DNA from: Cyclobacteriaceae bacterium
GTDB lineage: Bacteria; Bacteroidota; Bacteroidia; Cytophagales; Cyclobacteriaceae
Direction of reading: 5' to 3'
Assembly: GCA_019638355.1 (NCBI GenBank)
Contig: JAHBTY010000001.1
Location: 1,116,001-1,180,000, forward strand
DNA length: 64,000 nucleotides
The position numbers were made by a program, and so were the translations under genes. Positions 9,506 through 36,665 of this stretch are shown here, in pieces (position 1 is the stretch's first letter; every line of letters begins with the position of its first letter). Under the pieces are notes generated by a model. It did no database searches, was not told the DNA's origin, and saw only the letters and a list, made by a program, of their open reading frames with translations.

Positions 9506-10219
9506 ATGTTGAGAATTATGCTCTTGGTTATACTCGCCTTGCAAGCTGCAGCACAAGTACCACTTACTTCAAAATATTCCAACTATAGCGAAAATAAATA
9601 TAAGGATATGGCTTATGGATTGTTTAAGCCCATCGGTTACGATCCTACCACGTCTTATCCATTAATAGTGTGCCTGCATGGTAGTAACGATCTTGTTTCG
9701 CGCGATTTGTTGTGGTATCAACCAGAAGTACAAAAGCATTACCCGGCATTTGTGCTTACACCCAAATGCAAAGAAACAAATCAAGGTTGGGGCAATACAT
9801 GGACTACCAAACACACAGAAGCAACAGCTACCACACTCGCCCTGGTAGATTCATTGGTAAAGCAGTATAAAATTGATACAAAGCGATTATACCTGTATGG
9901 TATTTCGATGGGTGGCTTTGGTGTATTTTCTATACTAGAAAAAGAACCTGGAAAATTTGCAGCAGCGTTTGCCATTTGTGGTGGCAGTGATGCGAAAGCA
10001 GCAAACAAGTTGTTGCACACTCCGCTCTGGATTTTTCATGGCGCTGAAGATGATATTGTGCCGGTACGTTTATCGCGCAATGTGTACGAAGAAATGATGA
10101 AGCTTGGCGCAACCAATGTGAAGTACACCGAATATCCGGGTCTTCAACACAATAGTTGGGATAGCGCCCTTGCCGAAAAAGCATTACCGGAGTGGTTGTT
10201 TTCGAAGCGAAGGCAGTAA
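9506..10219 (+). CDS. Secreted alpha/beta-hydrolase (PHB depolymerase/esterase D-like)
   Basis: 237 residues with an N-terminal signal peptide (MLRIMLLVILALQAAAQ). The alpha/beta hydrolase fold shows the oxyanion strand PLIVCLHGSND, the nucleophile elbow GISMGGFG (GxSxGG), the acid in WIFHGAEDDIVP, and the catalytic His in GLQHNSWDSAL. The spacing matches the phospholipase/carboxylesterase and feruloyl/acetyl-esterase-like exported enzymes annotated in Bacteroidota. Likely periplasmic ester hydrolysis; the substrate is unknown. It is the second gene of an operon with the acetyltransferase. Confidence 0.85.
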   Translation: MLRIMLLVILALQAAAQVPLTSKYSNYSENKYKDMAYGLFKPIGYDPTTSYPLIVCLHGSNDLVSRDLLWYQPEVQKHYPAFVLTPKCKETNQGWGNTWTTKHTEATATTLALVDSLVKQYKIDTKRLYLYGISMGGFGVFSILEKEPGKFAAAFAICGGSDAKAANKLLHTPLWIFHGAEDDIVPVRLSRNVYEEMMKLGATNVKYTEYPGLQHNSWDSALAEKALPEWLFSKRRQ

Positions 10220-10566
10220 GGGCAGCGCTTTAAAAGTTTTATATCCCGGTTTTACCACTGTAAATCGAAAGAATCTGTACTCACTTGAATTATCAAACTG
10301 TTATTAGTAGACTGGAGGCTACCAGTATCGAACCAGTTTCTTCAAAACTTGATCAGATTTTTAGATTTTAAGGTTCGATAAGTTTCGGTTGGTAGGTTGT
10401 CAAAGATCGTTTGTGGAAAGCAAATCACAACACCATGACATCAGGGCGTAATGGTTATATCCACCTCCAGCACCCAGGTTTTTTGTTTACAGTAACCAGA
10501 CATTGTGCTAATGCATCATGCGTACTTCTGCCAGGCCTGTAGCGAAATGAGCTTAGATGAATCCTG
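10220..10566. other. Intergenic region (347 bp) carrying repeat copy A
   Basis: No convincing coding sequence on either strand. The stretch separates the esterase (rightward) from the NarL regulator (whose gene ends at 10567 reading leftward), so it lies between two convergent gene ends. It holds the palindromic repeat at 10303-10395; nothing else was recognised. Confidence 0.7.
10303..10395 (+). repeat. Dispersed palindromic intergenic repeat, copy A
   Basis: This 93-bp segment aligns without gaps to 16883-16975, with about 8 mismatches. It contains nested inverted repeats: CTACCA (10319-10324) with TGGTAG (10390-10395), and TATCGAACC (10326-10334) with GGTTCGATA (10372-10380). Both copies lie outside genes, one on each side of the NarL/lipoprotein block. 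It resembles a REP- or MITE-like element; no transposase is present in the window. Confidence 0.8.
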
Positions 10567-11196: not shown

Positions 11197-13145
11197 GCTA
11201 CCGGAAATTCAATGAGTACCGAAGTGCCGCTGCCCCCGGATTGTAAATGAATTCTCCCTTTTAAAAACGCTACCCTGCTTTTAATATTCTCCCACCCAAT
11301 GCCACCGGCCTGTTCAAGCACGCGCGTGTCAAAACCTTTTCCATCGTCTTCCACGGTTAGCGATAATGAATTCTTATCGAGCGTAAGCTGTACAATTACC
11401 TGGTTGGCCTTCGCATGTTTAATGCTGTTGTTCACCAACTCTTGTACAATGCGGTAAATGGCAATGCTCATGCTTTGATCCAGATCAGGTTTCGCCTCCA
11501 TGCCGATGCTCTGGTAATTCAGTTGAACCACATTGATCTGATCGATCTCGTCACAAAAATCCTGTAAAGCTTTGTTCAGCCCAAACCGCACCAACACTTC
11601 GGGCATCATATTGTGTGCAACGCGTCTCATTTCCTTTATGGAACTGTCGAGCATATCAATGCTGCGCTCAAAAGCCTGCGCATTGTCAGGCGTCATAATT
11701 AAATTTCCTTTCATAGTTTGCATAGAGTGTTTAATGCCGCTGAGCATGCCGCCTAGTCCATCGTGGAGATCTTTGGCCAGCCGGGTGCGTTCCTGTTCTT
11801 CGCCTTTTAATACTGCTTCGGTGGCTGCGAGTTGTTTTTCGGTTTCTAGTTCAACGATGCGTTGGTGTTGCAGTTTTTGTCGCTGCTGGTACATCCTGTA
11901 GATGAAAATCGACACCACGATCAGGGAAACCACAACCACAATCAGCAGATAGTTGTAAATGCTTTTTTGTTTGATTGTGGCTTGTTGTAAGTGGATCTGA
12001 GTTTCTTTTTTTTCCGATTCGTATTTCGTGTTCAGCTCGGCAACCGTTTTGGCAACCGCTTGCAGTTGGATCAGGTGCTCGATAGAATCTTCCTTGTTGA
12101 GGTAGTTGTTCATGCCGCGATAATCGTGGGCTTGCTGCGCGATGTCTGAAAGAACCTGGTAGGTCTTTCCTATTTCGTGCAGTAGCTTCAGTTCAGTACT
12201 CAGGTCGAGTGCCTGCCGTGCATAGTAATATGCAGAGTCATTTTGCTCCTGATAGAACCAATAAATACCCAGTCCGCGCAGGGCTATCGCTTCAAGTTCT
12301 TTTATTCCGAGCTTCTTTGAAAGTGTTAAGGCTCTTGAAAAATTCATTTTTGGTTTCTTAAACTGCCCTGTTACGATGTAGCTATGCCCCATGTTCAGCA
12401 GGGCATGGGCCAGTGTAAAATCATCACCGTTGGTTTCCGCTATTCTGCGCGACTCATCCAATACCTCAATCGCTTTATCAAATTGCAGTAAGTAATTATA
12501 CACTACACCCTGGTTAAGTAACGCCTGCGAGAGTAGCAACGGATTATTGTTATCGCGCGCATAGGCAACTGCCGTAGTTAAGTATGTTAGGGCCTTATCG
12601 TATTGTTTCAGGTCGGTATAACAAGACCCCAAGTTTTGATTGAGCAGTAATAGCAAGTAAGGATCTCGCAGGTCACGGATGACTTTTTCTGCTTCCAGAT
12701 AATACTTTACCGCACTATCGGGTTTCTCCAAATAGAGATAGGAGGACGCTACATTGCCCAGACAAGCTGAAAACATTCTCCGGTTTCCATATTCACGAGC
12801 CAATGCCACACTTTCGAGGTTCAATTGTAATGCTGAATCCAGCAGCGCCTTCAGGTTGAGTACATACGTGAAGTTACTAATGAATTTTATTTTGCCTGCG
12901 GTATAATCCAGTTCATCAGCCAGTGTTTTGCATTGCAAATAATAATAAGCAGCGCTCTCAAGACTGGTACCTTCATATTGCTGGCCGATGTTGATCAGCA
13001 ACAACACTTTGTTTGTGTCTTCCTTCGCTTGGGGCAATAAATGCAGCAGGCTGTCCAGGTTCATAGGAGTTTGTGCCATCAGAATTGTATTTCCAACTAT
13101 CAATATGACCGTGAGAATCTTTCGCATGAACCGGTGTTTTTTCAA
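11193..13145 (-). CDS. TPR-containing sensor histidine kinase (HisKA_3)
   Basis: 650 residues: signal peptide (residues ~1-25), a periplasmic tetratricopeptide-repeat array (about 30-370, with repeated A-x-x-Y-x-x-A-L helical pairs such as YDKALTYLTTAVAYA), one membrane helix (YNYLLIVVVVSLIVVSIFIYRMYQ, about 400-420), a coiled coil, then HisKA_3 with the phospho-acceptor His in LAKDLHDGLGGMLSG. The HATPase domain has VQELVNNSIKHAKA and VEDDGKGFD. This layout is frequent in Bacteroidota, paired with NarL regulators as here. An alternative Met at codon 7 (13127) would also give a good signal peptide. Confidence 0.92.
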   Translation of the reverse strand: MKKHRFMRKILTVILIVGNTILMAQTPMNLDSLLHLLPQAKEDTNKVLLLINIGQQYEGTSLESAAYYYLQCKTLADELDYTAGKIKFISNFTYVLNLKALLDSALQLNLESVALAREYGNRRMFSACLGNVASSYLYLEKPDSAVKYYLEAEKVIRDLRDPYLLLLLNQNLGSCYTDLKQYDKALTYLTTAVAYARDNNNPLLLSQALLNQGVVYNYLLQFDKAIEVLDESRRIAETNGDDFTLAHALLNMGHSYIVTGQFKKPKMNFSRALTLSKKLGIKELEAIALRGLGIYWFYQEQNDSAYYYARQALDLSTELKLLHEIGKTYQVLSDIAQQAHDYRGMNNYLNKEDSIEHLIQLQAVAKTVAELNTKYESEKKETQIHLQQATIKQKSIYNYLLIVVVVSLIVVSIFIYRMYQQRQKLQHQRIVELETEKQLAATEAVLKGEEQERTRLAKDLHDGLGGMLSGIKHSMQTMKGNLIMTPDNAQAFERSIDMLDSSIKEMRRVAHNMMPEVLVRFGLNKALQDFCDEIDQINVVQLNYQSIGMEAKPDLDQSMSIAIYRIVQELVNNSIKHAKANQVIVQLTLDKNSLSLTVEDDGKGFDTRVLEQAGGIGWENIKSRVAFLKGRIHLQSGGSGTSVLIEFPVA

Positions 13146-23716: not shown

Positions 23717-24424
23717 TTACTTTACGCCTGAAGCCAACATCGCCTGCATTGGATAGAGCCGTTTGAAAATATTTGAATTGACAAGTTGCATAATGAAGTA
23801 TCGCAATTCCTCGTCTGTGAACTTGATGACTGTCCGATATGCTTCCCGATGACACCTGCGGTATTTCTCTTTGCTCCCGCAAAAGCAATTTTCAGTCCGG
23901 CTTGGCTCAATACGTTTAGCAACGTGTGATATCAATTCATAAAGTCTGAGCAGATCCTTTGTCTTAAACAAGTCAAAGAAGAATTCAAGTTCTCCTAACA
24001 AACCGTGTGATCTCTCCTGAAGAAAGTACCCATGCTTCTCCCTGAATAGCTGATTGAAGAAATACGGCTTAACTTCTTTCTCGATGAAGACCTGAAGGGT
24101 GATGCCCGCTTTACAAAGAAGGATTTCCTCAGGTTGATTTTTTACACAGCAATGACCATCACTTTCAAATATATGCCAATCAATATTGCGCGGAATTCTT
24201 CCACCCGTTTCAAAGACAAATGGAAACCGATAAGGATATTCTTCGACCGCATGAATCTCGATGAAATAACTTCCATGTTTTACACCTTCAGCGTCTATGA
24301 GTTCAAGCTCTCCGGCAACAATGGGCTTCCCATCCTGTTCAAGAAATGACAGGCTGGGAAACGCATCGCTGATCTGAATTGCCTCCGCTCTGAAAAGTGA
24401 TATGCCATCAACTACTTCGCCCAT
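23717..24424 (-). CDS. CBASS E2-like protein fused to a SEC-C zinc motif
   Basis: 235 residues. Residues ~1-120 resemble a prokaryotic E2/UBC fold: EEYPYRFPFVFETGGRIPRNIDWHIFESDGHCCV has the order of an E2 active-site region (YPF..P..F, then His, DG, Cys), with Cys92 or Cys93 as the likely catalytic residue. Residues ~176-195 are a SEC-C motif (Cys180, Cys182, Cys191, His192), a zinc-binding module. In type II-short CBASS an E2 without an E1 or JAB peptidase modifies the CD-NTase. The gene overlaps the CD-NTase stop by 13 bp, so translation is coupled. The SEC-C fusion is unusual in my experience. Confidence 0.75.
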   Translation of the reverse strand: MGEVVDGISLFRAEAIQISDAFPSLSFLEQDGKPIVAGELELIDAEGVKHGSYFIEIHAVEEYPYRFPFVFETGGRIPRNIDWHIFESDGHCCVKNQPEEILLCKAGITLQVFIEKEVKPYFFNQLFREKHGYFLQERSHGLLGELEFFFDLFKTKDLLRLYELISHVAKRIEPSRTENCFCGSKEKYRRCHREAYRTVIKFTDEELRYFIMQLVNSNIFKRLYPMQAMLASGVK

Positions 24425-25353
24425 GGTCTTGAGGTAGCCGCACCCGTGGCGATCCCGATAGATGACAATCGGTTTTCATCTTGGTCTTCACCTTCCGGAA
24501 AACGTTCACCAAGATGCTTTCTCCAAAGCTTACTGGCCTTTAATTGATTGGGTTCCTTTAAGGCCTTGTCTGCATCTTCAATAAACTCATCAAGGGCCGT
24601 GAGGAAATTCTTTTCGCGTTCCGATGTGTAGTCAGCAAACAGGTCGTCCTTTGGGGTGACCGGAACAAAACATTCAAACTTTGCATCTAAAGCCTTTTTG
24701 ATTTCCTTGAGCGTATCGCGAAGCGTGATGTCTTCACGTTCATTGTAAACGATTTTTGCTTTTGCATTGGCAGCAAGAATGGTCATGGCAATTCCACTTG
24801 GCATCTTGTTGCGCTTGTGGTCGCACCATGCTTTGAGATCCTTCACATTATTGACAAGCATACCGTTCTTGTCCTTTCGTGCATTGAACCAGTCCACCAT
24901 CGCTTTTGGGTCGCTGTCTTCAAAGCCGTTATCTTTCACGGCAAGCTGATACTCCTGTCCATCTACCTTATAGTAAACAGGCATATCGATTTCATAATCG
25001 CTGGTGAAAATATTGCGGATACATTTCTTACGATGTTCAGGTTCTGTATCGGTGTATCCGTTAACAGCATCCTTCACCCATTGCTGAAGGGTGGTTGCGG
25101 TCACATCCGGTTCACGCATGAAATAAACTCCATCATCCAAGTCACAGATGTCATCTTTGGTACGAATCGGGGTTTTCATCTTGTCAGAGCCCTGAACATA
25201 AAACTTGGGACTATATCCAGGATGCTTCTCTTTAAAATCCTTTCTGATACGGTCGCGAAGTCCTTTCTTGGAGGTCATCATACGCTCCTTCTTCTTTGCC
25301 GGGATGGATATCTCCTCCTGGAACTTTTTAAATAAGTCATTACAGTTAGCCAT
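24412..25353 (-). CDS. CD-NTase (CBASS cyclic-oligonucleotide synthase)
   Basis: 313 residues with the nucleotidyltransferase signature: Gly55-Ser56 after YVQ, metal-binding Asp71 and Asp73 in CDLDDGVYF, and the third acidic residue Asp123 in YEIDMPVYY. The rest is helical with AWCDHKRNKMPSGIAMTILAA and PVTPKDDLF, typical of DncV/CD-NTase core proteins. On phage infection such enzymes make cyclic di- or trinucleotides that switch on the effector, here the patatin encoded next door. The C-terminus reads ATSRPWAK; CD-NTase tails are the E2 substrate in related systems. Operon order and spacing (5 bp after the phospholipase) support the role. The product nucleotide is unknown. Confidence 0.88.
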   Translation of the reverse strand: MANCNDLFKKFQEEISIPAKKKERMMTSKKGLRDRIRKDFKEKHPGYSPKFYVQGSDKMKTPIRTKDDICDLDDGVYFMREPDVTATTLQQWVKDAVNGYTDTEPEHRKKCIRNIFTSDYEIDMPVYYKVDGQEYQLAVKDNGFEDSDPKAMVDWFNARKDKNGMLVNNVKDLKAWCDHKRNKMPSGIAMTILAANAKAKIVYNEREDITLRDTLKEIKKALDAKFECFVPVTPKDDLFADYTSEREKNFLTALDEFIEDADKALKEPNQLKASKLWRKHLGERFPEGEDQDENRLSSIGIATGAATSRPWAK

Positions 25354-25358
25354 ATTGT

Positions 25359-26402
25359 TTACAGTTGTTTTACAGGTTTAAAATCTTCCTTCTTCTCGGT
25401 GAGAAACTGTTTCCATATTTCCGCACCATGTTCTTTATAGCTGTTGAGCGCAATGGCTTCCAGCTTCATAAGTTTCTGGGGATCGGTCTCATCGAGTTTG
25501 ATGTCTTCATTGTTGCCGAAGTAATGTTGTATGCGCTTGTAGTAGAACTTTGGCAGTTCCCCTTCGCCAACACCATTGTTGAGAAACTTGACGAGGTTAT
25601 CTGTGTTCTGGGATTGCGCACTGAACATCAGATCTACCAGCCGCACCTTCTTGTTCCCCCAATACCAGAAGCCAAAGCCCTTTTCGGTTTTGTGCTCGGT
25701 AAAGACTTTGTGTCCTGTTCCAAGTGAGAGAACGCGGATATCAGCAAGCGGTACACCGAGCGTATTGTGTGCTTCCACAATGCCTATGTGTGTTGGATTA
25801 TTGGCTATCACGCCACCATCAATATTCATATTGACTTCCACCAGATTAGCGGAATCAACCGGAGTATAGGTAAATGAATGAGGTGGAAAGAATACGGGAG
25901 CCGCAGCGGTGGAGAGTGCCACATGATGCGCAGGGATCTGGTAATCCCTGAAAAGCTTATCGTGATGTGCTGTCTTATATACGTTAGCTTTACCGGAAGC
26001 CGAGTTGTATGTAGGAATACATACACGGGTTTTCGCGTGACCGAGTCTCGTATCTCCGTTGCTGGAATATTTGGCAAAGGTTTCCTTCAGTAAATCGTGA
26101 AGAAAATCATTGGAATACATAGACCGAAACAGGCCGAACCGGAGTGCTTTCTTCTTGAAAATATTCGAAGCATTATCCCGATACAATTTTAGAATGTCCT
26201 GTGCTGGCATCCCCAGGGCAAGACCAATAGCAATAATCCCACCCGTGGACGTACCGCAGATCAGGTCGAAATAGTCACACAGCCTGGAGCCATTGCCATT
26301 TCTTGCAAGTTCTTCTTCCATTTCGCAGAGTAGCCGGGTCGGAAACATGCCCCGTATGCCACCGCCATCAATCGACAGAATTTTGAATGACCTTTTTTCC
26401 AT
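25359..26402 (-). CDS. capV: Patatin-like phospholipase, CBASS effector (CapV-like)
   Basis: 347 residues. The oxyanion motif DGGGIRG lies at residues 12-18, the nucleophile elbow GTSTGG at 50-55 (Ser52), and the catalytic Asp of the dyad in IDGGVIANNP near residue 195. These define a bacterial patatin. In CBASS, CapV is triggered by the cyclic nucleotide of the CD-NTase and degrades the inner membrane, killing the infected cell. It is 3 bp downstream of the HNH gene and 5 bp upstream of the CD-NTase gene, in a tight four-gene operon. The role is assigned from family and context. Confidence 0.88.
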   Translation of the reverse strand: MEKRSFKILSIDGGGIRGMFPTRLLCEMEEELARNGNGSRLCDYFDLICGTSTGGIIAIGLALGMPAQDILKLYRDNASNIFKKKALRFGLFRSMYSNDFLHDLLKETFAKYSSNGDTRLGHAKTRVCIPTYNSASGKANVYKTAHHDKLFRDYQIPAHHVALSTAAAPVFFPPHSFTYTPVDSANLVEVNMNIDGGVIANNPTHIGIVEAHNTLGVPLADIRVLSLGTGHKVFTEHKTEKGFGFWYWGNKKVRLVDLMFSAQSQNTDNLVKFLNNGVGEGELPKFYYKRIQHYFGNNEDIKLDETDPQKLMKLEAIALNSYKEHGAEIWKQFLTEKKEDFKPVKQL

Positions 26403-26405
26403 CGT

Positions 26406-26825
26406 TTAGACCCTCGGTGAGTTTTCGCTTCCAATCATTCCGCCCAGCGTTGCCCCGATCACAACTCCCCACGGTCCTCCGATAAGTCCGATCAGGCTGC
26501 CCACAAGAATGCCTGTACCCGTGTTGTCATCTTTCACTTTCTGCTTCTTTGTTCGGCTGTAAGGGGCACGTGTATTTCCGCAGGAACTTCTTGCCGTGCG
26601 GCTGCTCACAATTCCTTTATCCAGATTGCAGCCTATGCAGGCCGGGAAAAGGTTATTGAGATGATTGGTACCTCCACAGGCGCGTGGTACGGAGTGCTCG
26701 ATATGCCAGGCGCCCTTGGCACCTGTTTTTCCATGATTGTCGAAGCTGAGGCGGCAGTGGCAGATATGACAGCGGCCGTCAGTCTTTTTGAAAATCTGTT
26801 TGAGTCGTAGTAAATCTTTTGCCAT
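26406..26825 (-). CDS. HNH nuclease-like domain fused to glycine-zipper membrane segment
   Basis: 139 residues. Residues ~15-70 form an HNH/Cys-rich treble-clef domain: Cys19-x2-Cys22, HIEH at 41-44, NNLFPACIGCN with Cys63-x2-Cys66. Residues ~85-102 are a basic linker (YSRTKKQKVKDD) and ~104-133 a glycine-zipper hydrophobic segment (LVGSLIGLIGGPWGVVIGATLGG). It is the first gene of the CBASS-like operon, 3 bp before capV. Unlike Cap5 it has no SAVED sensor domain. It could be a second effector or a membrane-anchored nuclease accessory; this is inference. The ATG at 26825 is preceded by a dyad at 26844-26860. Confidence 0.7.
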   Translation of the reverse strand: MAKDLLRLKQIFKKTDGRCHICHCRLSFDNHGKTGAKGAWHIEHSVPRACGGTNHLNNLFPACIGCNLDKGIVSSRTARSSCGNTRAPYSRTKKQKVKDDNTGTGILVGSLIGLIGGPWGVVIGATLGGMIGSENSPRV

Positions 26826-27290: not shown

Positions 27291-28352
27291 ATGACTCAAT
27301 TTGCTGAACGGCTAAAGTCAGCCCGCACCATGGCTGGACTTTCGTTGCAGGATTTGGCCGAAAAGCTCCAAAATCGTGTAACCCGGCAAGCTCTTCATAA
27401 ATACGAGAAGGGTGAGATCATGCCGGATAGTGAAATGGTAGGCCTCTTGTGTGAAGCACTCGGGGTACGCCCGGACTATTTCTTCCGTAAAGCGGAAGTG
27501 AACCTGGAAAAGGTTGAATTCCGGAAACACCAGAAATTTCCAGTGAAAGAAAAGAAGAGCATTATCGAGAAAACCCGCGATTTCCTGTCGCGCTATATTG
27601 AACTGGAGGAGATTCTGGGGATTAACACCGCGTTTAAACTCGGCTTTACTATCGATCCGATTACTTCGAAGGAGGACGTGGAGAACGCAGCCATTGCTTT
27701 GCGAAAGCACTGGAAGCTGGGCACAGACCCTATTTTCAACTTGATCGAACTATTGGAGGATAACCATATCAAGGTAATCGAAATCGAAACTGAAGATGAT
27801 GGCCTGGAGGGTGTATCCGCTATGGTGAATGGATCAATCCCGGTGATCGTCTTGAATCGTGGTACCGCACAACGCAAAAAGCCGCTGGACCGGATCAGGT
27901 TTACTGCCATGCATGAATTGGCGCACGTGATTCTTCCGCTTGATAGTTTCACTGAAAAGGAGAAAGAGAAGTTCTGCCATTATTTTGCTGCTGCCATGCT
28001 ATTGCCGAAAGACATTGTGGCAAAAGAGATAGGTGAATCACGGTCAAAACTGATGATACAAGAACTGGGTGGCTTGAAGTTGCAGTACGGTATCTCCATA
28101 CAGGCAATCGCTTACCGGTTAAAAGACCTGAAAGTAATTTCCGAGTCTTACTTCAAGCAGTTCATGTTCATGATGACTCACCTGGGATACCGGGTGGACG
28201 AACCTTTCCCGTATCCAGGTTATGAAGAGTCTAATCGGTTTAACCAACTCCTCTTCAAAGCCCTTGGCGAAGAGTATATTTCTATGAGCAAAGCGGCATC
28301 GCTGAAAAATAAGAAACTGGCGGAATTCAGATCCGAGTACCTTGTGGCATAA
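27291..28352 (+). CDS. XRE-family regulator fused to ImmA/IrrE metallopeptidase
   Basis: 353 residues. An N-terminal Cro/CI helix-turn-helix (residues ~5-60, ERLKSARTMAGLSLQDLAEKL, QALHKYEKGEIMPDSEMVGLLCEALGV) is joined to an ImmA/IrrE peptidase domain with the zinc motif HELAH at 208-212 and the downstream FCHYFAAAMLLP segment. Such proteins are repressors that can be inactivated by proteolysis. In CBASS the separate CapH (HTH) and CapP (peptidase) do this job; here both functions are in one chain and the gene is divergent from the CBASS-like operon. Its stop overlaps the start of the PIN gene by 1 bp (TAATG). Confidence 0.88.
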   Translation: MTQFAERLKSARTMAGLSLQDLAEKLQNRVTRQALHKYEKGEIMPDSEMVGLLCEALGVRPDYFFRKAEVNLEKVEFRKHQKFPVKEKKSIIEKTRDFLSRYIELEEILGINTAFKLGFTIDPITSKEDVENAAIALRKHWKLGTDPIFNLIELLEDNHIKVIEIETEDDGLEGVSAMVNGSIPVIVLNRGTAQRKKPLDRIRFTAMHELAHVILPLDSFTEKEKEKFCHYFAAAMLLPKDIVAKEIGESRSKLMIQELGGLKLQYGISIQAIAYRLKDLKVISESYFKQFMFMMTHLGYRVDEPFPYPGYEESNRFNQLLFKALGEEYISMSKAASLKNKKLAEFRSEYLVA

Positions 28353-28864
28353 TGAAACTCGTTGTTACCGATGCGTGCATCTTCATCGATGTAATAGAAC
28401 TCCAGCTCACGTCTGAGTTTTTCGGACTTGAGCTGGAGATTCATACTACGGTGGATGTCATCAACGAGTTATTTCCGCACCAACAACAGTTACTTCGGGC
28501 GTACGAACACGGTGGTAAATTGACTGTCCATGTTCTTACTCCGGCAGATCAGGAAGCGATAAACAAAGAGAATTTTCCGAGGGCTCTTTCTCCGGAAGAT
28601 TGCTCCGTGATTTACATCGCCCGGAAACTCAACGCCACTGTACTGAGTAGTGATAAACCTGTACGAACACATGCCCGAAACCTTTCCATTGAGTATCATG
28701 GTATGTTTTGGATCTTTGACAAACTGGTGGCCGCGAAAATATTGACTGGTGCAACGGCAACGGTCAAGCTCAACGTATTGATGGAATCAAACATCATTTA
28801 TAAAGGAAATCAGGAGATGGTAAAGGAAGCGGAGAAGAGATTTCGTGTTTGGAAGGCGCTCTAA
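28352..28864 (+). CDS. PIN-domain protein partnered with XRE-ImmA
   Basis: 170 residues. A PIN-like RNase fold is suggested by the N-terminal VTDACIFIDVIE (acidic Asp7, Asp13), TVDVINELFP (Glu near 41), and LSPEDCSVIYIARKLNATVLSSDKPVRTHARN (acidic residues near 92-93 and 109), in the order of the PIN acidic active site. It is translationally coupled to the XRE-ImmA gene (TAATG). This pair resembles a toxin-antitoxin-like cassette in which the regulator controls or neutralises the nuclease. The target RNA is unknown. Its stop is 4 bp from the converging recombinase gene. Confidence 0.72.
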   Translation: MKLVVTDACIFIDVIELQLTSEFFGLELEIHTTVDVINELFPHQQQLLRAYEHGGKLTVHVLTPADQEAINKENFPRALSPEDCSVIYIARKLNATVLSSDKPVRTHARNLSIEYHGMFWIFDKLVAAKILTGATATVKLNVLMESNIIYKGNQEMVKEAEKRFRVWKAL

Positions 28865-28868
28865 TTAA

Positions 28869-29465
28869 TTAGTTCAATCTTTCTTTTACAAAACTGCTAA
28901 CTGTTAATCGGTGTACTCCCAAAATTCTTCCGATAGCCGAATACGAAACATTCTTTTCAAGCAATTCCTGTATTTTTTTCTCATGACCTGTGAGTTTTGT
29001 CTTTAAGGATTTTCTGCCAACAGGACGACCTAAAATAACACCTTCTGCTTTCTTTCTTGCCAAAGCTTCCTTGGTTCGTTGAGAAATTAAGTTACGTTCA
29101 ATTTCAGCGGAGAGACCGAATGCAAAAGCCAAAACTTTAGAATTGATGTCACTGCCCAGACGATAATTGTCTTTGATAGTCCATACTTGAATATCACGGT
29201 TCATACATTCATTAAGAATGCCCATGATCATCAAAAGATTTCTGCCCAGACGCGATAGCTCAGAGCATATCAAGATGTCGCTTCTTTTCATTTTTTTTAA
29301 AAGCTTGCCGAGCTTTCTCTCTTGCAGGTCTTTTGAGCCCGAAATAGTTTCTTCAATCCATTTATCAACTACGAGTGTGCTTCGTTGGCAAAACTGGTTG
29401 AGTTCATAACGTTGGTTTTCTACTGTTTGTTTGTCGGTGCTTACCCGAATGTAGCCGTAAATCAT
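28869..29465 (-). CDS. Serine recombinase (Hin/resolvase family DNA invertase)
   Basis: 198 residues. The catalytic Ser9 lies in IRVSTDKQT. The family motifs LSRLGRN and AFAFGLSAEIERNLISQRTKEALARKKAEG are present, and the C-terminal helix-turn-helix is VSYSAIGRILGVHRLTVSSFVKE. The size equals small DNA invertases (Hin, Gin, Mpi). Such enzymes recombine short dyad sites and invert the DNA between them. It sits next to the inverted repeats that divide the alternative methylase tails (29697-30483), so those repeats are the expected substrate. The ATG at 29465 lies at the edge of an 8-bp inverted repeat (29468-29510) that may be its operator. Confidence 0.9.
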   Translation of the reverse strand: MIYGYIRVSTDKQTVENQRYELNQFCQRSTLVVDKWIEETISGSKDLQERKLGKLLKKMKRSDILICSELSRLGRNLLMIMGILNECMNRDIQVWTIKDNYRLGSDINSKVLAFAFGLSAEIERNLISQRTKEALARKKAEGVILGRPVGRKSLKTKLTGHEKKIQELLEKNVSYSAIGRILGVHRLTVSSFVKERLN

Positions 29466-29549: not shown

Positions 29550-30083
29550 TTGTTCAAGAGATTCGTTTCCATATCCCAACATAAAAAAGGGAGGTTTAAT
29601 ATTGACGGAGAGTGGTTTCAGTTTGGAAGAAAACAGGGAATTAATTTTGCCGAGAAAGAAAAACTGGTAGCTCCTGAGATTTCCCTCGGAGGAAATTTTT
29701 CGTATGACGAAAAGGGTGAATTTTATTCGACTACTACAATTTATGGTTACATCAAGAAACAGGGGGTAACCGATAGTTATAAAGTGCTTATGGCAATACT
29801 TAATTCGCAATTGTGTTGGTGGTATTTAGTGAATACTGGAACAGTATTGTCAAATGGATACTTTCGGTACAAACCAAACTATATTAAACCCTTTCCTATT
29901 CCAATAATTCCTCCAGCAACAACTGAGATATTGGACGAGCTTGTCACTCAAATTATAGAAAGTAAAAGGACCAACAATAATATTCGAATCATTGAGCTAG
30001 AAAATAGAATAAACCAAACAGTATATAATTTATACCAACTCAGTGAAACTGAAATCGAAGAAATAAACCTAATTAATCATTGA
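29550..30083 (+). pseudogene. Silent methylase 3' cassette (alternative target-recognition tail)
   Basis: Open frame of 177 codons with only a TTG start. The product matches the C-terminus of the methylase at 30106-33390: shared EKLVAPEISLGGNFSYDEKGEFYSTT, then a diverged tail (TIYGYIKKQGVTDSY...NSQLCWWYLVNTGTVLSNGYFRYKPNYIKPFPIP...YNLYQLSETEIEEI) matching the TaqI/Eco57I C-terminal specificity region. It has no methylase core and converges with the active gene. Inversion at the 38-bp repeats would join this tail, in frame, to the methylase. About 50 codons before the repeat are also homologous (NIDGEWFQFGRKQG...), the remnant of an older full copy. Confidence 0.82.
29697..29734 (+). repeat. 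38-bp inverted repeat, left copy (recombination site)
   Basis: Perfect inverse copy of 30446-30483, in the same codon phase (encodes FSYDEKGEFYST). It starts with a dyad TTTTCG-TATGA-CGAAAA (17 bp), a plausible serine-recombinase core. Flanking homologous DNA on both sides is only about 70-75% identical, so the perfect identity is restricted to this segment. Confidence 0.88.
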
Positions 30084-30445
30084 TAATCAATTGTTTACGA
30101 TAAATTCATTTAATCAAACCAATGTCACTCTCTGTAAGCTGATAGAGTTTATAAATATGCGTATCAATCTCATTTTCGTATTGAGTGGTGTCCGAATCAG
30201 TTCCCTCTTTCTTTATTGAGAGAATTCTTTTTACAAGTTCCTCAATAGAACTGGATATGTCGTTTGGTATCATTTCGGGTACAGGAAATGGTAATATATA
30301 ATTTGTTTTAAAGGTGTAGTAGCCACCTCTTAATACATATCCCGTATGCTGAATGAAATACCAAAATAGTCTTGAGTTAAATAGACCAAGCCAAAACAAA
30401 TAGCTCTCCATTGTTTTACTTTTTTTGATGTATCCGTAAATTTTT
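29735..30445. other. Invertible 711-bp segment with two convergent methylase tails
   Basis: Segment between the two 38-bp inverted repeats. On the plus strand it holds the silent tail (to the stop at 30083) and on the minus strand the active tail (30445 down to 30106). Inversion swaps the last ~112 residues of the methylase without altering frame. The present orientation was fixed in the assembly; mixed orientation in a culture is predicted. Confidence 0.8.
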
Positions 30446-33390
30446 GTAGTCGAATAAAATTCACCCTTTTCGTCATACGAAAAGTTGCCACCCAATGAAA
30501 TTTCTGGAGCAACTAATTTTTCATTGCTAAAAAGTGTAAGATTCTTTGGATAGATATACTTGTACCAAGCACTGTCATTTTTTAACCTCCCATTTTCTCT
30601 ATCACGTAATTCATTCTCGCATTTTTTGAGATAGGAGTATGCATGAGGAAATGATTCCGATATTTCCTTTTCACTATACAACTCTGCATTCCCATTAATC
30701 AGCTTATAAGGAAAAACAACTGCTCTATCAGTTTGAATTGGTTCGTATCGATGTACACCATCCCCTTTCAATAGTGGTTTGGTAAAATCTTTTTCAATGG
30801 TTACCAATTCATCTAATTGTTTGGACAGACCTGTTACGAATGTTCCTTCATATTTGCAGTCATACAAAAAATAGACGTCATCTTTACTGGTGGCAAGCCC
30901 TTGAAATATTTTTTCAAAAACATCACTGATTCTCCTGGGGAAGCTATTTAATTTATCAATTATTTGTGATGAACTCTTTCCAGTTAATGTCCAGACCTCT
31001 CTAGTAAGTTTGTCTTTTGGTAGGTAAGTGCCGCTCGAAGGAGCTAACGAGCCTAAGTAGTCGGCAAGCTCGTCATTCGACTTCAAATCTCGGTTCAACT
31101 CGTGGTACAACAGATTGCCTGAATTAAATTTAAACCACTGCAATCCTGTATAAGTAGATGCATTGAATACTTGGTACGCACTAAAGTTTATAATTTTGTT
31201 AGCTGCATTTTTTTCAGAGATCACTTGTCTTAGCCCCGCTCCAAATGCTGCATTTGTCCACTTTGTGGGCATAATGAAATTGACCAGCCCATGCTGATTA
31301 ATCAACCTAAGAGATCTTTCAACAAAAACGACATATAAGTCAAATGACCCGCTTGCTGACTTATACTCTTTTGTAAGTGCATTAGCTAACTCAGGGTTTG
31401 AATCTCTTATTCCTTGAATTCTCAAATAAGGTGGATTGCCAATAACTATGTCAAAACCGTTATTGATACCAAACATCCACCAGGGGTCAAACCATGAACA
31501 GGATTTGTCTTCAAAAGGACTATACTCATAAAGCTTTAACAGAATGCCTTGCTCTTCTGTATTTGCCCATTCTTTTACCTTCAATAAATCCTTTTGCAAC
31601 GACTTGAATTTCTTTTCGAGTTCACTTTTCTCATCCATGCTTGCGCTGAAATAATCGTGGCGCACGCGCTGCATCTCATGAATGATGTCGTTAAGCCCAC
31701 CTATGTTGTAATTCTTAATTTGACCTAACGGTATCAGCGTATTAGCACAAACAATTTTGAAGTCGAGATTAGGCAAAGGTTGGGGTACTTCTTCATCTAC
31801 TACGAGACTTAACCAAAAACGTAAGCGTGCAATATCCACAGCGCCAGCGTCAATATCTACTCCATAGATGCTCTCCTCAATGATGTGCTTTTTAATATCG
31901 GCATCTGTTACACCTTTTTTGAACCCTTTTAATTCCTGCAAATAAATCTGCGTGTTAAAAATTTCGAGAAGCAAACCCATTGGGAATGCACCAGAACCAA
32001 TTGCCGGATCGCAGATCTTCACTTTTTCTAATGCGTCAATAATTTTATACGCATTCTTTTCAGCAAATTGTTTTTCGGCACTTGTTAATTCATTCTGCTG
32101 AATAATTTTATCGATGGTGCTGAGTGCAAGTTCATTGCCAGAAAAATGTAAATAATCTTGTTCCAACAAAAATGTTTTCAAACTCTCCTGACACATGTAA
32201 TGGACAATTTCTTTAGGGGTATAAAAAGCCCCTTTGTCTTTGTTATCTTCTAACAAGTTTTCAAAAATATGTCCTAACATTTCTGGATCAACTGCTACAG
32301 TATGTTCATCTGGCGAATCTTCGTAAACAGTGAAGTTGTAGTTATTAAATGTTTCAAATAGATGCTCAAAAATTTGCTGGGGCAATTGAAGTTTATTGTA
32401 TTTCCGATCGTGGCTGTCATCAAACAAACCACCATTCAGATAAGGAAATCTATACGCATTACTTTCTTTTTCTGAATCGACATTGTTGAGTGTTTTAAAG
32501 AACAATGGAACTAACTCACGATGATAAAAGTCATCTTTGTTTTTGGAAGAGTTAAAGAGGTCGTATAAATAGTTAGGATTCCCTTCACTCCATTTTTTGT
32601 CTTTCGCTACTGCGAGCCAACCTTTCTTTTGAATGAAATATAGAAATACAATTCTACCCAGCATTCGCTTGCAGAAATCGCGTGCTTGCTTTTCATCCTT
32701 ACCAAATAGATTGGCAAGTTGCCAGTCAGGTTCTTTTGTAATTTTTTCCTCGTACTTATTGCCTTTTTTTACGTATCGTTTACCTGTAATAAACTCAACG
32801 AACTCCTCGTATGTCTCTTTGTAATTACTGAAAAATTCTTTGCTGAGTTTTTCTACTGAGAAAGCTTCTTCAAAATCATCGAGAGACAGGAATTGGTACA
32901 GATTGTCCTTTTGCTTTTGAATGAGCTTGTCAAAACGCTGTGCAGCAGTTAGTGCTTTTTCGTTTTTACCAAACAAATAAGTGTAACGCTTGGGTGCCGT
33001 TTCACTGTCTTGAATTGCATTAGTCTCTTTGTTCTTTACCTTTCGTTTGCTGATATAACTGAAACGCCATCTTTCGCCTTGTACAAATACCACCATCGCT
33101 CCCGCTACTTGCTTGGTCAGATCCTTGAGGAGGTTTCGTAAAGCAACACGATTACGAGTAATGTTAACCTTCTCGTTTAACTCTATCTCGAAAATCCCGA
33201 TTTTCGTGTATTCATTGATTTCATAATTACCCAAACTAAGACATTGCTTGCTTAGTGTTTTGTCCGACAAGGATATTGCACGGTCCTCTGCATTCAGTTT
33301 ATTGTTAGTAAACTGTGTTTGAAGGAAGCCTTTCCAAACTTTTCTGTCGTATGGAAGTTCGAGAATATCTCTTATTTCTTGTATTGTCAT
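30106..33390 (-). CDS. Eco57I-type DNA adenine methyltransferase, phase-variable specificity
   Basis: 1094 residues. N-terminal ~350 residues precede the methylase core: KGAFYTPKEIVHYMCQE, SAM motif I in ICDPAIGSGAFPMGLL (about residues 460-470), and motif IV NPPY (about 651-654), which indicates N6-adenine methylation. The C-terminal ~350 residues are a TaqI/Eco57I-like target-recognition region. Codons 970-982 lie in the 38-bp repeat; the following tail is exchangeable with the silent cassette at 29735-30083. The gene follows the PLD-helicase by 14 bp, forming a restriction- or exclusion-type pair. No PglZ, BrxC or other BREX gene is adjacent. Confidence 0.88.
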   Translation of the reverse strand: MTIQEIRDILELPYDRKVWKGFLQTQFTNNKLNAEDRAISLSDKTLSKQCLSLGNYEINEYTKIGIFEIELNEKVNITRNRVALRNLLKDLTKQVAGAMVVFVQGERWRFSYISKRKVKNKETNAIQDSETAPKRYTYLFGKNEKALTAAQRFDKLIQKQKDNLYQFLSLDDFEEAFSVEKLSKEFFSNYKETYEEFVEFITGKRYVKKGNKYEEKITKEPDWQLANLFGKDEKQARDFCKRMLGRIVFLYFIQKKGWLAVAKDKKWSEGNPNYLYDLFNSSKNKDDFYHRELVPLFFKTLNNVDSEKESNAYRFPYLNGGLFDDSHDRKYNKLQLPQQIFEHLFETFNNYNFTVYEDSPDEHTVAVDPEMLGHIFENLLEDNKDKGAFYTPKEIVHYMCQESLKTFLLEQDYLHFSGNELALSTIDKIIQQNELTSAEKQFAEKNAYKIIDALEKVKICDPAIGSGAFPMGLLLEIFNTQIYLQELKGFKKGVTDADIKKHIIEESIYGVDIDAGAVDIARLRFWLSLVVDEEVPQPLPNLDFKIVCANTLIPLGQIKNYNIGGLNDIIHEMQRVRHDYFSASMDEKSELEKKFKSLQKDLLKVKEWANTEEQGILLKLYEYSPFEDKSCSWFDPWWMFGINNGFDIVIGNPPYLRIQGIRDSNPELANALTKEYKSASGSFDLYVVFVERSLRLINQHGLVNFIMPTKWTNAAFGAGLRQVISEKNAANKIINFSAYQVFNASTYTGLQWFKFNSGNLLYHELNRDLKSNDELADYLGSLAPSSGTYLPKDKLTREVWTLTGKSSSQIIDKLNSFPRRISDVFEKIFQGLATSKDDVYFLYDCKYEGTFVTGLSKQLDELVTIEKDFTKPLLKGDGVHRYEPIQTDRAVVFPYKLINGNAELYSEKEISESFPHAYSYLKKCENELRDRENGRLKNDSAWYKYIYPKNLTLFSNEKLVAPEISLGGNFSYDEKGEFYSTTKIYGYIKKSKTMESYLFWLGLFNSRLFWYFIQHTGYVLRGGYYTFKTNYILPFPVPEMIPNDISSSIEELVKRILSIKKEGTDSDTTQYENEIDTHIYKLYQLTESDIGLIK
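30446..30483 (-). repeat. 38-bp inverted repeat, right copy (recombination site within methylase gene)
   Basis: Perfect inverse copy of 29697-29734. It lies at codons 970-982 of the active methylase gene, at the start of the variable tail. It contains the same TTTTCG/CGAAAA dyad. Confidence 0.88.
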
Positions 33391-33404: not shown

Positions 33405-36400
33405 TTAAGAAACAAACGTTTCGGAGATGATGATTTTGGGCTTCAAGGGTTCAATATCTTTTTTAGTCTGTCTCTTTATTTTGGAAGTGTATTTTTTTGA
33501 AAGCATTATCAATTCAGCTTCCAGTTTTAGCGGGTTTGTTTCGTTTCTTAATTTATAAACTTCATTCGTCAAATTGTTGTAAGTGCCGTGTTTAAGTAAA
33601 GGCAACAGATTGGTTCCGGCTTCTATGGCTTCCGGTGCTGAGATAATTTGGCTGGCTAACCAGTTACTTAAATCATTGATTGCTTTGTTTGATCGTATAT
33701 CCAGTTTGTCTTCAGCTCCGCCAATCATTTCTGGCGTAGTAATGTCGCGCTCAAATTGCTCTAAAACGTGGTTAATGTGTTTGTAATGTACATCTGGCAC
33801 TGGCAGGATGCCTTCCTCTGATTTCAGCGCTTCAAAAATATTTACTGCTTTTTCAAATGGTAGAGCAAATGACTTGCCTTCTGAATGTAGGTAGATATTT
33901 TTATACTCTCCGTTCTTTACGAAGGCAACACTGATTTGCTTTTCAGTTGCTTTGCGTACGCAGCGAACCTTTAGAGGCATTTTCCGAATAGTATTAAAAT
34001 GCTCTTCGTTTTGCTCTCTGAACTTTCTAAGCCACTCTAAATATTCAGTTCGTAAATCCTTGTCTTCGTTCTTCTCTTCGAACATGCGGAACTGATCTAT
34101 GATCTCATCCAACGTATAAATTTTGTTATCCTCACCAAAAGTACTGTGACTACTTTGTAGTTTTACCAATGATTTCTGGCGAAGGTTGATTCTATTGTCA
34201 CCATGTTCCGAAGGGTAGAAATTGTAATTGTAAATCTTTTGGGCTTTTGTTCCGATTCGATTGATACGACCTAATCGTTGAATCAACTTTGTCGGATTCC
34301 AAGGCGTGTCATAGTTTACGATTACATTAGCGCGGTGCAAGTTAATGCCCTCAGCAAGCACATCGGTTGTCAAAATGATGTCATAATCATTTTTGAAAGT
34401 GCCTTCATAGTTGGCATCAAAGTTTTCACGAATAACTTCAAATTGCGCATTTCTATTATCTGAGGTTATACTTAAGACTTTGTAGCTGGTTTCCCTCTTC
34501 AATCTGTCAGTCAGGTAATTTAATGTGTCTGCTGATTCAGTGAATATTACCAGTTTACCCAGTTCGTTTTTGTCTTTATCGAAATATTCGTTTTTAAGTA
34601 GCGTTATAAACACGTTCCACTTAGGGTCGTTATGCTCCTCAACGGCTTGCCATCTTTGATTTAGAGAATGTAGATGCTCATAATCATTTCGTAAGCCTTC
34701 TAAAAACCCTTTCTTGAAATCAGTTTGCTTGAATTTCTTATTCTTTGGTTTCTCGTCATCAATCTTCAGAATTTCAATTTCAATTTCTTCGTCAGTGTAA
34801 CCCTTGCTCAGCAAATCTGAAATATCCAGATCGGGAGCAATGAATACGCTATCCCGTTCATACATTTCAATCATCTGACTTGTAGACTCGGTTATTTTAT
34901 TTAATGATTTTTTGAATGCATAAAAACTACTTTCCAGGCGCTTGATCAATTGCGTTTGCATAATGAAAGCCAATGAACGCGATATTGTCTGAGCACTTTG
35001 ATACAGACCGTTATTAGCATCATCAGTCAGGTAAGCAATTGCCTGATAGCGAAAAAAATCAACTTTATTTTTGTCAATTATGCTATTGGCCGTATCAAGA
35101 AATAATGTTGCTAAATCATGAGGTAGCTCGTATTCATTTGCAAATGGGTCAGCCACCTTTGGAAAAATGATTCCCTGTTCTTGCAAGTCCTTTGCATAGC
35201 GTTCATTATTCTTCAAATCAGTCCTTGTTCTCCTAATAGTAATGTCTTTAATTACCTTGTCTCGTATGTCTGTGAATATATCCTGGATTCCCTGTAGGTC
35301 AAGCGGTGTTTGCTGAATTAAAGTTTTGTACCGGGTGATGTGAGGATAAAAAAACTTTTGCAGATTAGTTTGATTTAAGTTGCTGTTACGAACATCTTGA
35401 AATGTTTGTAATAGGTTGTAAATATCTTCAGGGCGATTGTTAAGTGGCGTGGCTGAAATTAAGACAACCTTCTTTTCAAAGCCTTCAATACCACCAATAT
35501 TTTCCCGACCAGATTTGCAAACGATTTGTAAGTTCTGAAATTGTTGGCTTCTATGGTTTCTGAATTTGTGGGCTTCATCTACAAGGACTAAATCGTAACG
35601 TTCTTTGTCTGCGTAATTGTGGTCACCTTCTACAATCTTATTCAAACTACCATTCGCAATGAAATGACATTTGTCATCAATCCTGAATTCTTTGAAAGTG
35701 CTTTTCCAGTTCTTTTCAAGAGTAGGTGGGTAGACAATGAGGATCTTGGTTTTAGGTCCATTGTTGATAATGAATTTCTTTGCCAGCAAGGCAGCCATGA
35801 CAGTCTTGCCAGTCCCTACTACATCGGCCAAAAAGAAGCCATTGTGTTTTAAAAGTAATTCATATCCCTGGTTAACGGCATCGATCTGATAACTGAGTTT
35901 CTTAAATTTCTTTAATGGAATGTCGCTTATACTTTCCGGATCGTATTCAATGTTTTTACCGAAAAATTCGATTAAGAATTTTACATACAGTTCAAAAGGC
36001 GTGGGAGTAGCATCTAAATAAGTTTTCTTAATTAATGAAGGCGCGTCTACTGGAAGTATCGGAGTGCTTTGCTCCCACAGCATTTCAAACTCCGTATTTG
36101 CAAACTTTACGTTGTCATAATCTCTTAATTCAATATTCATTTCGTAGTTATGCTCCACATACTCAAGTCCCAAGCCTTGTGCTGAAAGATTTGATGAACC
36201 CATAATCACCATTCCGTTGGGATTATGTTCGTTGAAATTTGGAGAAAGAAAAATGTAAAATTTAGAGTGAAGTTTCTTTGAGTTGTGTGCTCTTATCTCA
36301 ATTCTGCCATCGGCAATATCACCGATGAGTTGAATAATCCCTTCTTCAATGTTTTTGCCATATTTCGAATTGACTATATCTTCCTGTATGGATTCAATGA

Positions 36401-36665
36401 ATGATTGCTTGGTGTCTTTTGCATTAAGGTTAAATAAGAGACCTTGCTTTTGAGCTAATGCGATAAATGGGTCAACATTTATTCCTGCAATGATTTTTAC
36501 TTTTAAGTTCGCAGGAAAATGCTTGCGGATTGCAAAATAACCTGATGCTCGGAAATAGCCGATAACAGATTTGAAGTACTCGATATTTTGCATGTGCTCA
36601 AATACACCTACAAATTTTTTGTAGAGCGTATTCTCGCCTTGATTGGTGAAGAAGTTTGAGGCCAT
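33405..36665 (-). CDS. PLD nuclease-SNF2 helicase fusion, defence system subunit
   Basis: 1086 residues. Residues ~1-180 form a phospholipase-D-type nuclease domain with His133-x-Lys135 (LHSKFYIF) and GSSN at 156-159. Residues ~255-900 are an SF2/SNF2 helicase: Walker A GTGKT at 284-288, DEAH at 363-366, SATPLNNRPEDIY (motif III), and QRLGRINRIG (motif VI). Such PLD-helicase proteins occur next to Eco57I-type methylases in phage-exclusion systems, where the methylase marks self DNA and this protein acts on unmarked DNA. That division of labour is inferred. It is preceded on the same strand by a small XRE regulator, 28 bp away. Confidence 0.85.
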   Translation of the reverse strand: MASNFFTNQGENTLYKKFVGVFEHMQNIEYFKSVIGYFRASGYFAIRKHFPANLKVKIIAGINVDPFIALAQKQGLLFNLNAKDTKQSFIESIQEDIVNSKYGKNIEEGIIQLIGDIADGRIEIRAHNSKKLHSKFYIFLSPNFNEHNPNGMVIMGSSNLSAQGLGLEYVEHNYEMNIELRDYDNVKFANTEFEMLWEQSTPILPVDAPSLIKKTYLDATPTPFELYVKFLIEFFGKNIEYDPESISDIPLKKFKKLSYQIDAVNQGYELLLKHNGFFLADVVGTGKTVMAALLAKKFIINNGPKTKILIVYPPTLEKNWKSTFKEFRIDDKCHFIANGSLNKIVEGDHNYADKERYDLVLVDEAHKFRNHRSQQFQNLQIVCKSGRENIGGIEGFEKKVVLISATPLNNRPEDIYNLLQTFQDVRNSNLNQTNLQKFFYPHITRYKTLIQQTPLDLQGIQDIFTDIRDKVIKDITIRRTRTDLKNNERYAKDLQEQGIIFPKVADPFANEYELPHDLATLFLDTANSIIDKNKVDFFRYQAIAYLTDDANNGLYQSAQTISRSLAFIMQTQLIKRLESSFYAFKKSLNKITESTSQMIEMYERDSVFIAPDLDISDLLSKGYTDEEIEIEILKIDDEKPKNKKFKQTDFKKGFLEGLRNDYEHLHSLNQRWQAVEEHNDPKWNVFITLLKNEYFDKDKNELGKLVIFTESADTLNYLTDRLKRETSYKVLSITSDNRNAQFEVIRENFDANYEGTFKNDYDIILTTDVLAEGINLHRANVIVNYDTPWNPTKLIQRLGRINRIGTKAQKIYNYNFYPSEHGDNRINLRQKSLVKLQSSHSTFGEDNKIYTLDEIIDQFRMFEEKNEDKDLRTEYLEWLRKFREQNEEHFNTIRKMPLKVRCVRKATEKQISVAFVKNGEYKNIYLHSEGKSFALPFEKAVNIFEALKSEEGILPVPDVHYKHINHVLEQFERDITTPEMIGGAEDKLDIRSNKAINDLSNWLASQIISAPEAIEAGTNLLPLLKHGTYNNLTNEVYKLRNETNPLKLEAELIMLSKKYTSKIKRQTKKDIEPLKPKIIISETFVS

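Follow-up and report, generated by a model that had tools for sequence, protein, structure and literature searches.

Invertible hsdS loci of Type I restriction-modification systems carry inverted repeats within coding sequence together with silent specificity pieces that are swapped in frame, as described in the excerpts available of the reports on them (PMC4948785, PMC4190663, PMC7394358, PMC7096588, PMC6620402, PMC5903667, PMC11892184). According to the same excerpts, spnIII recombines without any known site-specific recombinase. The locus analysed here resembles these loci in layout, and its recombinase belongs to the family that acts on the Mpi promoter invertons of Bacteroides, likewise consulted in excerpt (PMC4747536, PMC8375218). 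It lies in a 64,000-nt stretch of the Cyclobacteriaceae bacterium contig JAHBTY010000001.1 (GCA_019638355.1), positions 1,116,001-1,180,000, referred to below as the window. An adenine DNA methylase gene is faced there by a silent copy of its own C-terminal part, beside a gene for a serine invertase. We consider it very probable that the locus works as a programmed-inversion module joined to a system of two genes, for this methylase and for a helicase with a phospholipase D (PLD) domain. Its parts, in window coordinates, are as follows.

28869-29465, reverse strand: Mpi-family serine DNA invertase of 198 residues, predicted recombinase of the switch (NCBIfam NF009949, Pfam Resolvase)
29584-29606, forward strand: outer crossover site (site 2), silent-cassette arm, predicted centre GA at 29591-29592, inferred from comparing four loci
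29593-29696, forward strand: silent upstream module (U), type y, approximate borders
29697-29734, forward strand: inner crossover site (site 1), silent arm of 38 nt, predicted centre GT at 29716-29717
29735-30083, forward strand: silent downstream module (D), type beta, to the stop codon; the cassette reading frame matches TaqI_C
29735-30445, no strand: 711-bp segment between the 38-nt arms, predicted to invert
30106-30445, reverse strand: active downstream module D, type alpha, to the stop codon
30446-30483, reverse strand: inner crossover site (site 1), active-gene arm, 38 nt exact
30484-30587, reverse strand: active upstream module U, type x, approximate borders
30574-30596, reverse strand: outer crossover site (site 2), active-gene arm, sharing 19 of 23 nt with the other arm
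30106-33390, reverse strand: Eco57I-type adenine DNA methylase with a TaqI_C specificity region, 1094 residues (Pfam Eco57I 3.9e-37, TaqI_C 6.1e-8)
33405-36665, reverse strand: partner PLD-nuclease/SNF2-type helicase, 1086 residues (Pfam PLDc_2, SNF2-rel_dom, Helicase_C)

Inverted arms and recombinase

The two arms of site 1, 29697-29734 on the forward and 30446-30483 on the reverse strand, are identical at 38 of 38 positions and encode the same peptide, FSYDEKGEFYST, in the same codon phase; the copies are 711 bp apart. They are embedded in inverted arms of 105 nt that are 84% alike overall; all 17 mismatches lie outside the 38-nt core, so that the flanks are about 75% alike. When 17 mismatches are placed at random, a clean run of at least 38 nt arises in 0.36% of the shuffles. 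The repeat is also the longest exact inverted repeat in the 13 kb scanned (minimum length 16 nt, arms separated by 20-6000 nt). After the residues GEFYS, the active tail continues for 114 residues and the silent one for 117, and the open reading frame of the silent cassette (29550-30083, forward strand) matches TaqI_C only, with no catalytic domain in Pfam.

The recombinase scores 338 bits against NF009949 in an NCBIfam profile search (cutoff 272), covers positions 1-196 of 203 and begins with MIYGYIRVST. By profile it is thus a full-length Mpi-family serine invertase with predicted inversion activity, and it is the sole match of its kind in its own genome at E<=1e-3; this protein would be the enzyme of the switch.

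An earlier note, made from the letters of the DNA, had described the perfect 38-nt repeats with one peptide in one phase and a homology of some 70-75% beyond them, and repeat scan and translation agree with it on both counts. The adjacent serine recombinase and the PLD-helicase partner that it named were recovered by the Mpi and Pfam profiles above. Its in-frame swap of a tail of about 112 residues stands in that the two tails are in phase and of similar extent, but the swappable part reaches further upstream, to site 2.

Evidence for past exchange

Modules U and D were compared in the four loci with a crossover site at GxFYS: the window, L016 (Pedobacter montanisoli), L031 (Mucilaginibacter) and L035 (Dysgonamonadaceae). 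With A for the active and B for the silent copy, U falls into type x (WIN_A, L016_B, L031_A, L035_B; 62-85% identical within the type) and type y (WIN_B, L016_A, L031_B, L035_A; 71-88%), with 33-50% identity of x versus y. D divides differently, into type alpha (WIN_A, L016_A, L031_B, L035_A; 59-64%) and type beta (WIN_B, L016_B, L031_A, L035_B; 51-58%), with 40-47% between them. Each split has 100% ultrafast bootstrap (UFBoot) support and the two are mutually incompatible, which indicates exchange within the short conserved stretch that holds the 38-nt site. Thus the window has x-alpha as its active gene, L031 has x-beta, and L016 and L035 both have y-alpha. One copy each of x, y, alpha and beta is present in every locus, as predicted by conservative exchange and not by one-way conversion. 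Typed in this way, the window is a reciprocal recombinant relative to its relatives at the stretch of the 38-nt site, and both active/silent arrangements occur across lineages.

Exchange can also be seen in two Lactococcus plasmids. From the SVF core to the WDDF core, the active block of pJM1F and the oppositely oriented silent cassette of pUCCL629A share 99.2% identity over 496 bp, and the reciprocal pair (pJM1F silent, pUCCL629A active) shares 85% over 535 bp. Beyond the block the tails differ, which requires more than one exchange. Module types between the RPIL and WDDF cores are reversed in L113 relative to L107, L108, L109, L111 and L112, and L107 and L108, from one genus, have their modules in the same orientation.

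The spare tails are not decaying, since their nonsynonymous divergence (dN) is close to that of active tails (0.33-0.41 for silent-silent and 0.31-0.38 for active-active pairs). Synonymous divergence (dS) was 1.9-2.1 in two of these six pairs and non-computable in the other four (in six of all ten pairs).

Recurrence of methylase, cassette and invertase

A contig scan of genomes yielded 79 methylase loci, and spare cassettes were detected with a hidden Markov model of methylase C-termini as a convergent copy on the opposite strand. A cassette was found in L016, L031, L035 and two Capnocytophaga loci, L032 and L054. The same five loci carry a recombinase 58-87% identical to that of the window; a 25% identical resolvase in L092 was excluded from the count. 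Of the 56 loci that were eligible, having a complete methylase frame and 2.5 kb or more beyond it, five had both cassette and Mpi gene and 51 had neither (Fisher p 2.6e-7).

The search was also run from the recombinase. At E<=1e-50 it matched in 9 of 395 genomes of the phylum, 11 of 395 of the class and 10 of 291 of the order, the window's own genome being counted in each, and the matches fall in 27 distinct places. All 27 regions were examined (L110 is the L031 locus and L124 the L016 locus). A methylase with a convergent cassette is present at 11 of them, and L126 makes one more with a cassette cut by the contig end; what its contig contains of the layout is there. Among the other 15, L123 and L141 lie within 160 nt of a contig end, L150 is on a 4.8-kb contig, and two genes carry stop codons (G418, G793). 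Two genomes of the window's genus found via the methylase (G008, G024) have the layout too (L107, L108), and the order helicase, methylase, convergent cassette, Mpi gene is also that of pJM1F and pUCCL629A. The complete layout is therefore known from the window and 17 other loci, in Bacteroidota and on the two Lactococcus plasmids; the recombinase of L114 lies on the strand opposite to all others. Eight of 15 plasmid matches were examined, and besides the two Lactococcus plasmids there were six without the layout by annotation. The recombinase search also matched five phages, and no match was found in viral contigs scanned with 25 nt of the core.

Helicases 89-91% identical to that of the window occur in L017, L018 and L020 without cassette or invertase in the sequence examined, so the switch looks like an optional add-on. 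Two further Lactococcus plasmids, pUCCL635A and pLLUC147A (L159, L160), are close relatives with no cassette or invertase annotated and may be locked derivatives or ancestors. On a Prevotella nigrescens plasmid (L155), Eco57I-domain methylase genes come immediately after the Mpi gene, which may be a further arrangement of the switch. In L123, L126 and L141 the contig breaks off 115, 541 and 157 nt from the invertase gene, and such breaks would fit mixed orientations in the sequenced culture.

Crossover sites and their shared core

In the window, L016, L031 and L035 the cassette starts at another short repeat, site 2, which in the window occupies 29584-29606 and 30574-30596, some 42 codons before site 1. 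An exchange at this site would account for the difference of L031 from L016 and L035 in U as well as in D. The predicted centre of site 2 is GA in the window, L031 and L035 and CA in L016, and the arms agree within each locus. Site 2 may be active as a crossover site, and this second, outer site would bring the number of states to four.

Across the methylase family, exact cores lie mostly at the motifs SVFVRQ, NEAFII, RPILRG, W(D/E)DF and GxFYS. Common to them is the right half-site C/G-G/A-A/T-TTTT...T..GAC, which occurs in all three codon phases, and L016 contains the complete dyad AAAAACG-GT-CGTTTTT. The repeat published for Mpi of Bacteroides fragilis is, in the excerpt available, ARACGTTCGTN (PMC8375218), and the site consensus rests on this repeat and the methylase loci. 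In Capnocytophaga periodontitidis (L054), a crossover-like repeat of 52 nt lies at the catalytic NPP motif (10207-10258 and 12472-12523), where exchange would swap the whole recognition domain.

At least six of seven core letters were found more often in Mpi-linked than in control sequences at SVF (8/19 versus 5/65), RPIL (12/22 versus 8/73), WDDF (17/29 versus 4/71) and GxFYS (4/29 versus 0/66), whereas the NEAF position showed no enrichment (2/22 versus 5/73). Codons that create the core were likewise preferred in linked sequences: CCG for Pro207 (12/24 versus 4/47), GAC for Asp275 (6/6 versus 2/8), GAG for Glu275 (11/13 versus 4/13) and GAT for Asp276 (17/17 versus 2/5). Because linked and control sequences are related by descent, the p-values of the half-site and codon comparisons are too small.

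The central dinucleotide tends to vary with the position of the site. For 40 arms from 20 cores selected by hand, whose centres were set manually from the L016 dyad and the published core, it is GA in 10 of 10 WDDF arms, AC in 10 of 10 RPIL arms, GT in 8 of 8 GxFYS arms and AG in 7 of 8 SVF arms; exact cores make the two arms agree by necessity. Long identical blocks (L105, L114, L140, L145), L054, L151, L157 and site 2 lie outside this set, and the RPIL centre of L145 deviates, being TC. In the alignment of all linked sequences, with or without a site, the counts are AC 17/22 (RPIL), GA 19/29 (WDDF), GT 11/29 (GxFYS) and AG 8/19 (SVF), compared with AC 25/73 and GA 21/71 at the same positions in controls. 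Serine recombinases need matching 2-bp overlaps, and each centre may therefore act as an address that blocks out-of-register exchange.

Target recognition and alternative explanations

The closest solved relatives of the methylase by profile are CamA (6e-71) and BseCI (1e-53). In the excerpt available of the CamA paper (PMC8187626), Arg425, Gln438, Trp439 and Arg441 read the first bases, Ser472, Ala473 and Tyr521 touch the fourth pair, Ser514 and Ile517 touch the rearranged A5:T6, and base contacts are also made by Gln346, Ile349, His171 and Lys172, which lie earlier in the chain. These residues were mapped by hand on a HMMER alignment, with the chain numbering one higher than that of the paper. 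Gln438, Trp439 and Arg441 correspond to Ile946, Tyr947 and Lys949 in U, the equivalent of Arg425 lies just outside U, Ser472 and Ala473 correspond to Ser980 and Thr981 at site 1, and Ser514, Ile517 and Tyr521 correspond to Arg1021, Tyr1024 and Lys1028 in D. By this alignment the swapped pieces are parts of one recognition domain. U and D both match regions of CamA that touch bases, and the states are therefore expected to differ in the motif that they methylate. As a determinant of specificity U is a strong candidate and D a plausible one, which makes it likely, though by inference, that inversion changes the specificity of the methylase.

An alternative, which we regard as unlikely but deserving attention, is that the inversion is real and affects partner contacts, activity or part of the recognition surface, with little change of the DNA motif. 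The contacts in D would suit it: one differs throughout, Tyr1024 is unchanged and Lys1028 differs in one of eight sequences; besides, the far C-terminus of such enzymes is helical. On the other hand, all three contact positions of U differ between Ile/Tyr/Lys in type x and Gly/Arg/Gln in type y across the eight sequences, and the D loop around Arg1021 changes from LRGGY to L-S/A-NGY, with Ser or Ala in place of the arginine in type beta. Both states are in frame, and the locus is thus not an on/off switch.

Several observations weigh against a specificity switch driven by the invertase. The genome assembly contains a single orientation of the segment. Just one of the three D contacts, Arg1021, separates alpha from beta throughout, and some CamA contacts (e.g. 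Gln346, His171) map upstream of U. The arms of site 2 agree at only 19 of 23 nt, and the window's own site scores 5/7 against the family half-site. The remaining 8 of the 12 codon tests were non-significant or marginal, including all three of GxFYS, the window's class. Within 3.5 kb of 15 Mpi genes that have no complete methylase beside them, no clear common repeat (exact, at least 13 nt) was found. RecA or transfer of modules might, in principle, also account for reciprocal exchange between genera.

A second alternative is that ordinary homologous recombination or gene conversion between the gene and its duplicate C-terminus keeps the repeats alike, with no dedicated switch. A stretch of 38 bp suffices for low-level RecA exchange, and identical stretches of 212-284 bp in L105, L140 and L145 and of 96-111 bp in L114 suggest conversion there. 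We nevertheless judge this explanation improbable, as the cassette co-occurs with Mpi, the silent cassettes are open and as constrained as the active ones, and the exchanges are reciprocal. Moreover, exact identity in most linked loci is limited to short cores with a DNA motif in three reading frames, and the codon bias at some cores appears only where Mpi is present. A third idea, that deletion of a second methylase left the spare tail as an isolated relic next to an unrelated recombinase, would agree with the tail's want of a catalytic domain, but a truncated convergent cassette lies beside Mpi in 18 other loci (one cut before the methylase). This comparative layout largely refutes the idea, and we hold it to be highly improbable.

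The system and its neighbourhood

Relatives of the methylase in the Protein Data Bank are CamA, BseCI, PglX and BrxX. Membership of bacteriophage exclusion (BREX) as a PglX was considered and rejected at 91.5 bits against a cutoff of 500 for BREX-1 and 68 against 400 for BREX-2. In the ten open reading frames scanned, the only other listed match to a BREX profile is the helicase (BrxHI, 92 bits), which ranks below its HmaA and DrmD matches. Assignment to the defence island system associated with restriction-modification (DISARM) through its DrmD helicase was rejected as well (157.6 bits against a cutoff of 610). The best PADLOC matches of the methylase are Type IIG profiles, with best stretches 445-1093 and 230-556; Pfam finds no nuclease domain in its N-terminus, and the nuclease-like domain is the PLD domain of the partner. 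In most linked loci the partner helicase adjoins the methylase; none was found in L035, and L113 has a weakly matching one elsewhere in the locus. The second helicase-methylase pair of the window's own genome (L106) has neither cassette nor recombinase.

The switch is likely located in a defence island. An operon resembling the cyclic oligonucleotide-based antiphage signalling system (CBASS), with an E2-type protein, a DncV-like cyclase and a patatin phospholipase effector, occupies 23717-26402, beside an HNH gene at 26406-26825. Next to the invertase, 27291-28864 encodes an RmrA-like helix-turn-helix/IrrE regulator and then a small gene, which had no Pfam, PADLOC or NCBIfam match at 1e-3 and is PIN-like by reading of its sequence.

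Discussion

We propose that the Mpi-family invertase would recombine inverted pairs of sites of about 30 bp within coding sequence. Crossover at site 1, in the 38-nt arms, would swap the last ~115 residues in frame, and crossover at site 2, ~42 codons upstream, would swap U together with the tail D. Two site pairs would give four active genes: x-alpha, which is now active, x-beta, y-alpha and y-beta. The states would methylate different motifs, and the helicase-nuclease partner would then tolerate a different modification pattern. The inversion of the earlier note gains support from the reciprocal recombinants, the Lactococcus swaps, the co-occurrence with Mpi and the constrained silent tails. 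Switching may occur within one culture, a change of motif could serve against phages, and the bacterium is probably able to alter its choice of DNA to mark and attack.

More tentatively, and with greater doubt than hope of its being right in full, the loci may form a mobile, widespread family of in-gene shufflons. One Mpi-type invertase would act on several site classes within a single target-recognition domain; the paired arms share a centre that tends to vary with position (GT, AG, AC, GA), so that only partners in frame and in register would recombine, and nested pairs would yield up to 2^n states for n pairs. If true, pieces of a single DNA-reading domain are reassembled, giving more specificities from less DNA than swaps of whole domains. 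Such natural chimeric recognition domains, with marked seams, could help in learning how these enzymes read DNA, and the arrangement suggests bet-hedging of restriction against phages that bear the host methylation pattern.

Among the open-licence literature matches listed, which include hsdS and promoter invertons but not the 2023 survey by Milman, none describes an Mpi-linked fused methylase, and this is weak evidence of novelty. That survey treats gene-altering programmed inversions and, going by its title, is reportedly a catalogue of inversions in coding sequence. BREX PglX methylases of lactobacilli have invertible ends that alter the specificity part of a fused adenine methylase, and are thus comparable to the window methylase, which however falls below the NCBIfam PglX cutoffs. 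The invertible PglX was not found among the matches listed. CamA and BseCI share with the window methylase a catalytic plus a recognition region, and we know of no switch for either. CamA is described as an orphan enzyme in the excerpt of its report (PMC8187626).

In the excerpts on hsdS, inversion changes methylation, whereas in the window this change is predicted. In hsdS loci the pieces are portions of a distinct S subunit, and PsrA, the recombinase that has been studied, is a tyrosine recombinase; the window swaps parts of one recognition domain in a fused methylase beside a serine invertase of the Mpi family. As far as the excerpts on the Mpi promoter invertons go, their repeat ARACGTTCGTN resembles the ACG-NN-CGW core of the methylase loci, but they flip promoters and many lie far from the gene, whereas the methylase loci have local sites of several classes within coding sequence. 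Restriction-modification systems with invertible specificity are well known, and the multi-site, sub-domain form with an Mpi invertase looks like a new version of them.

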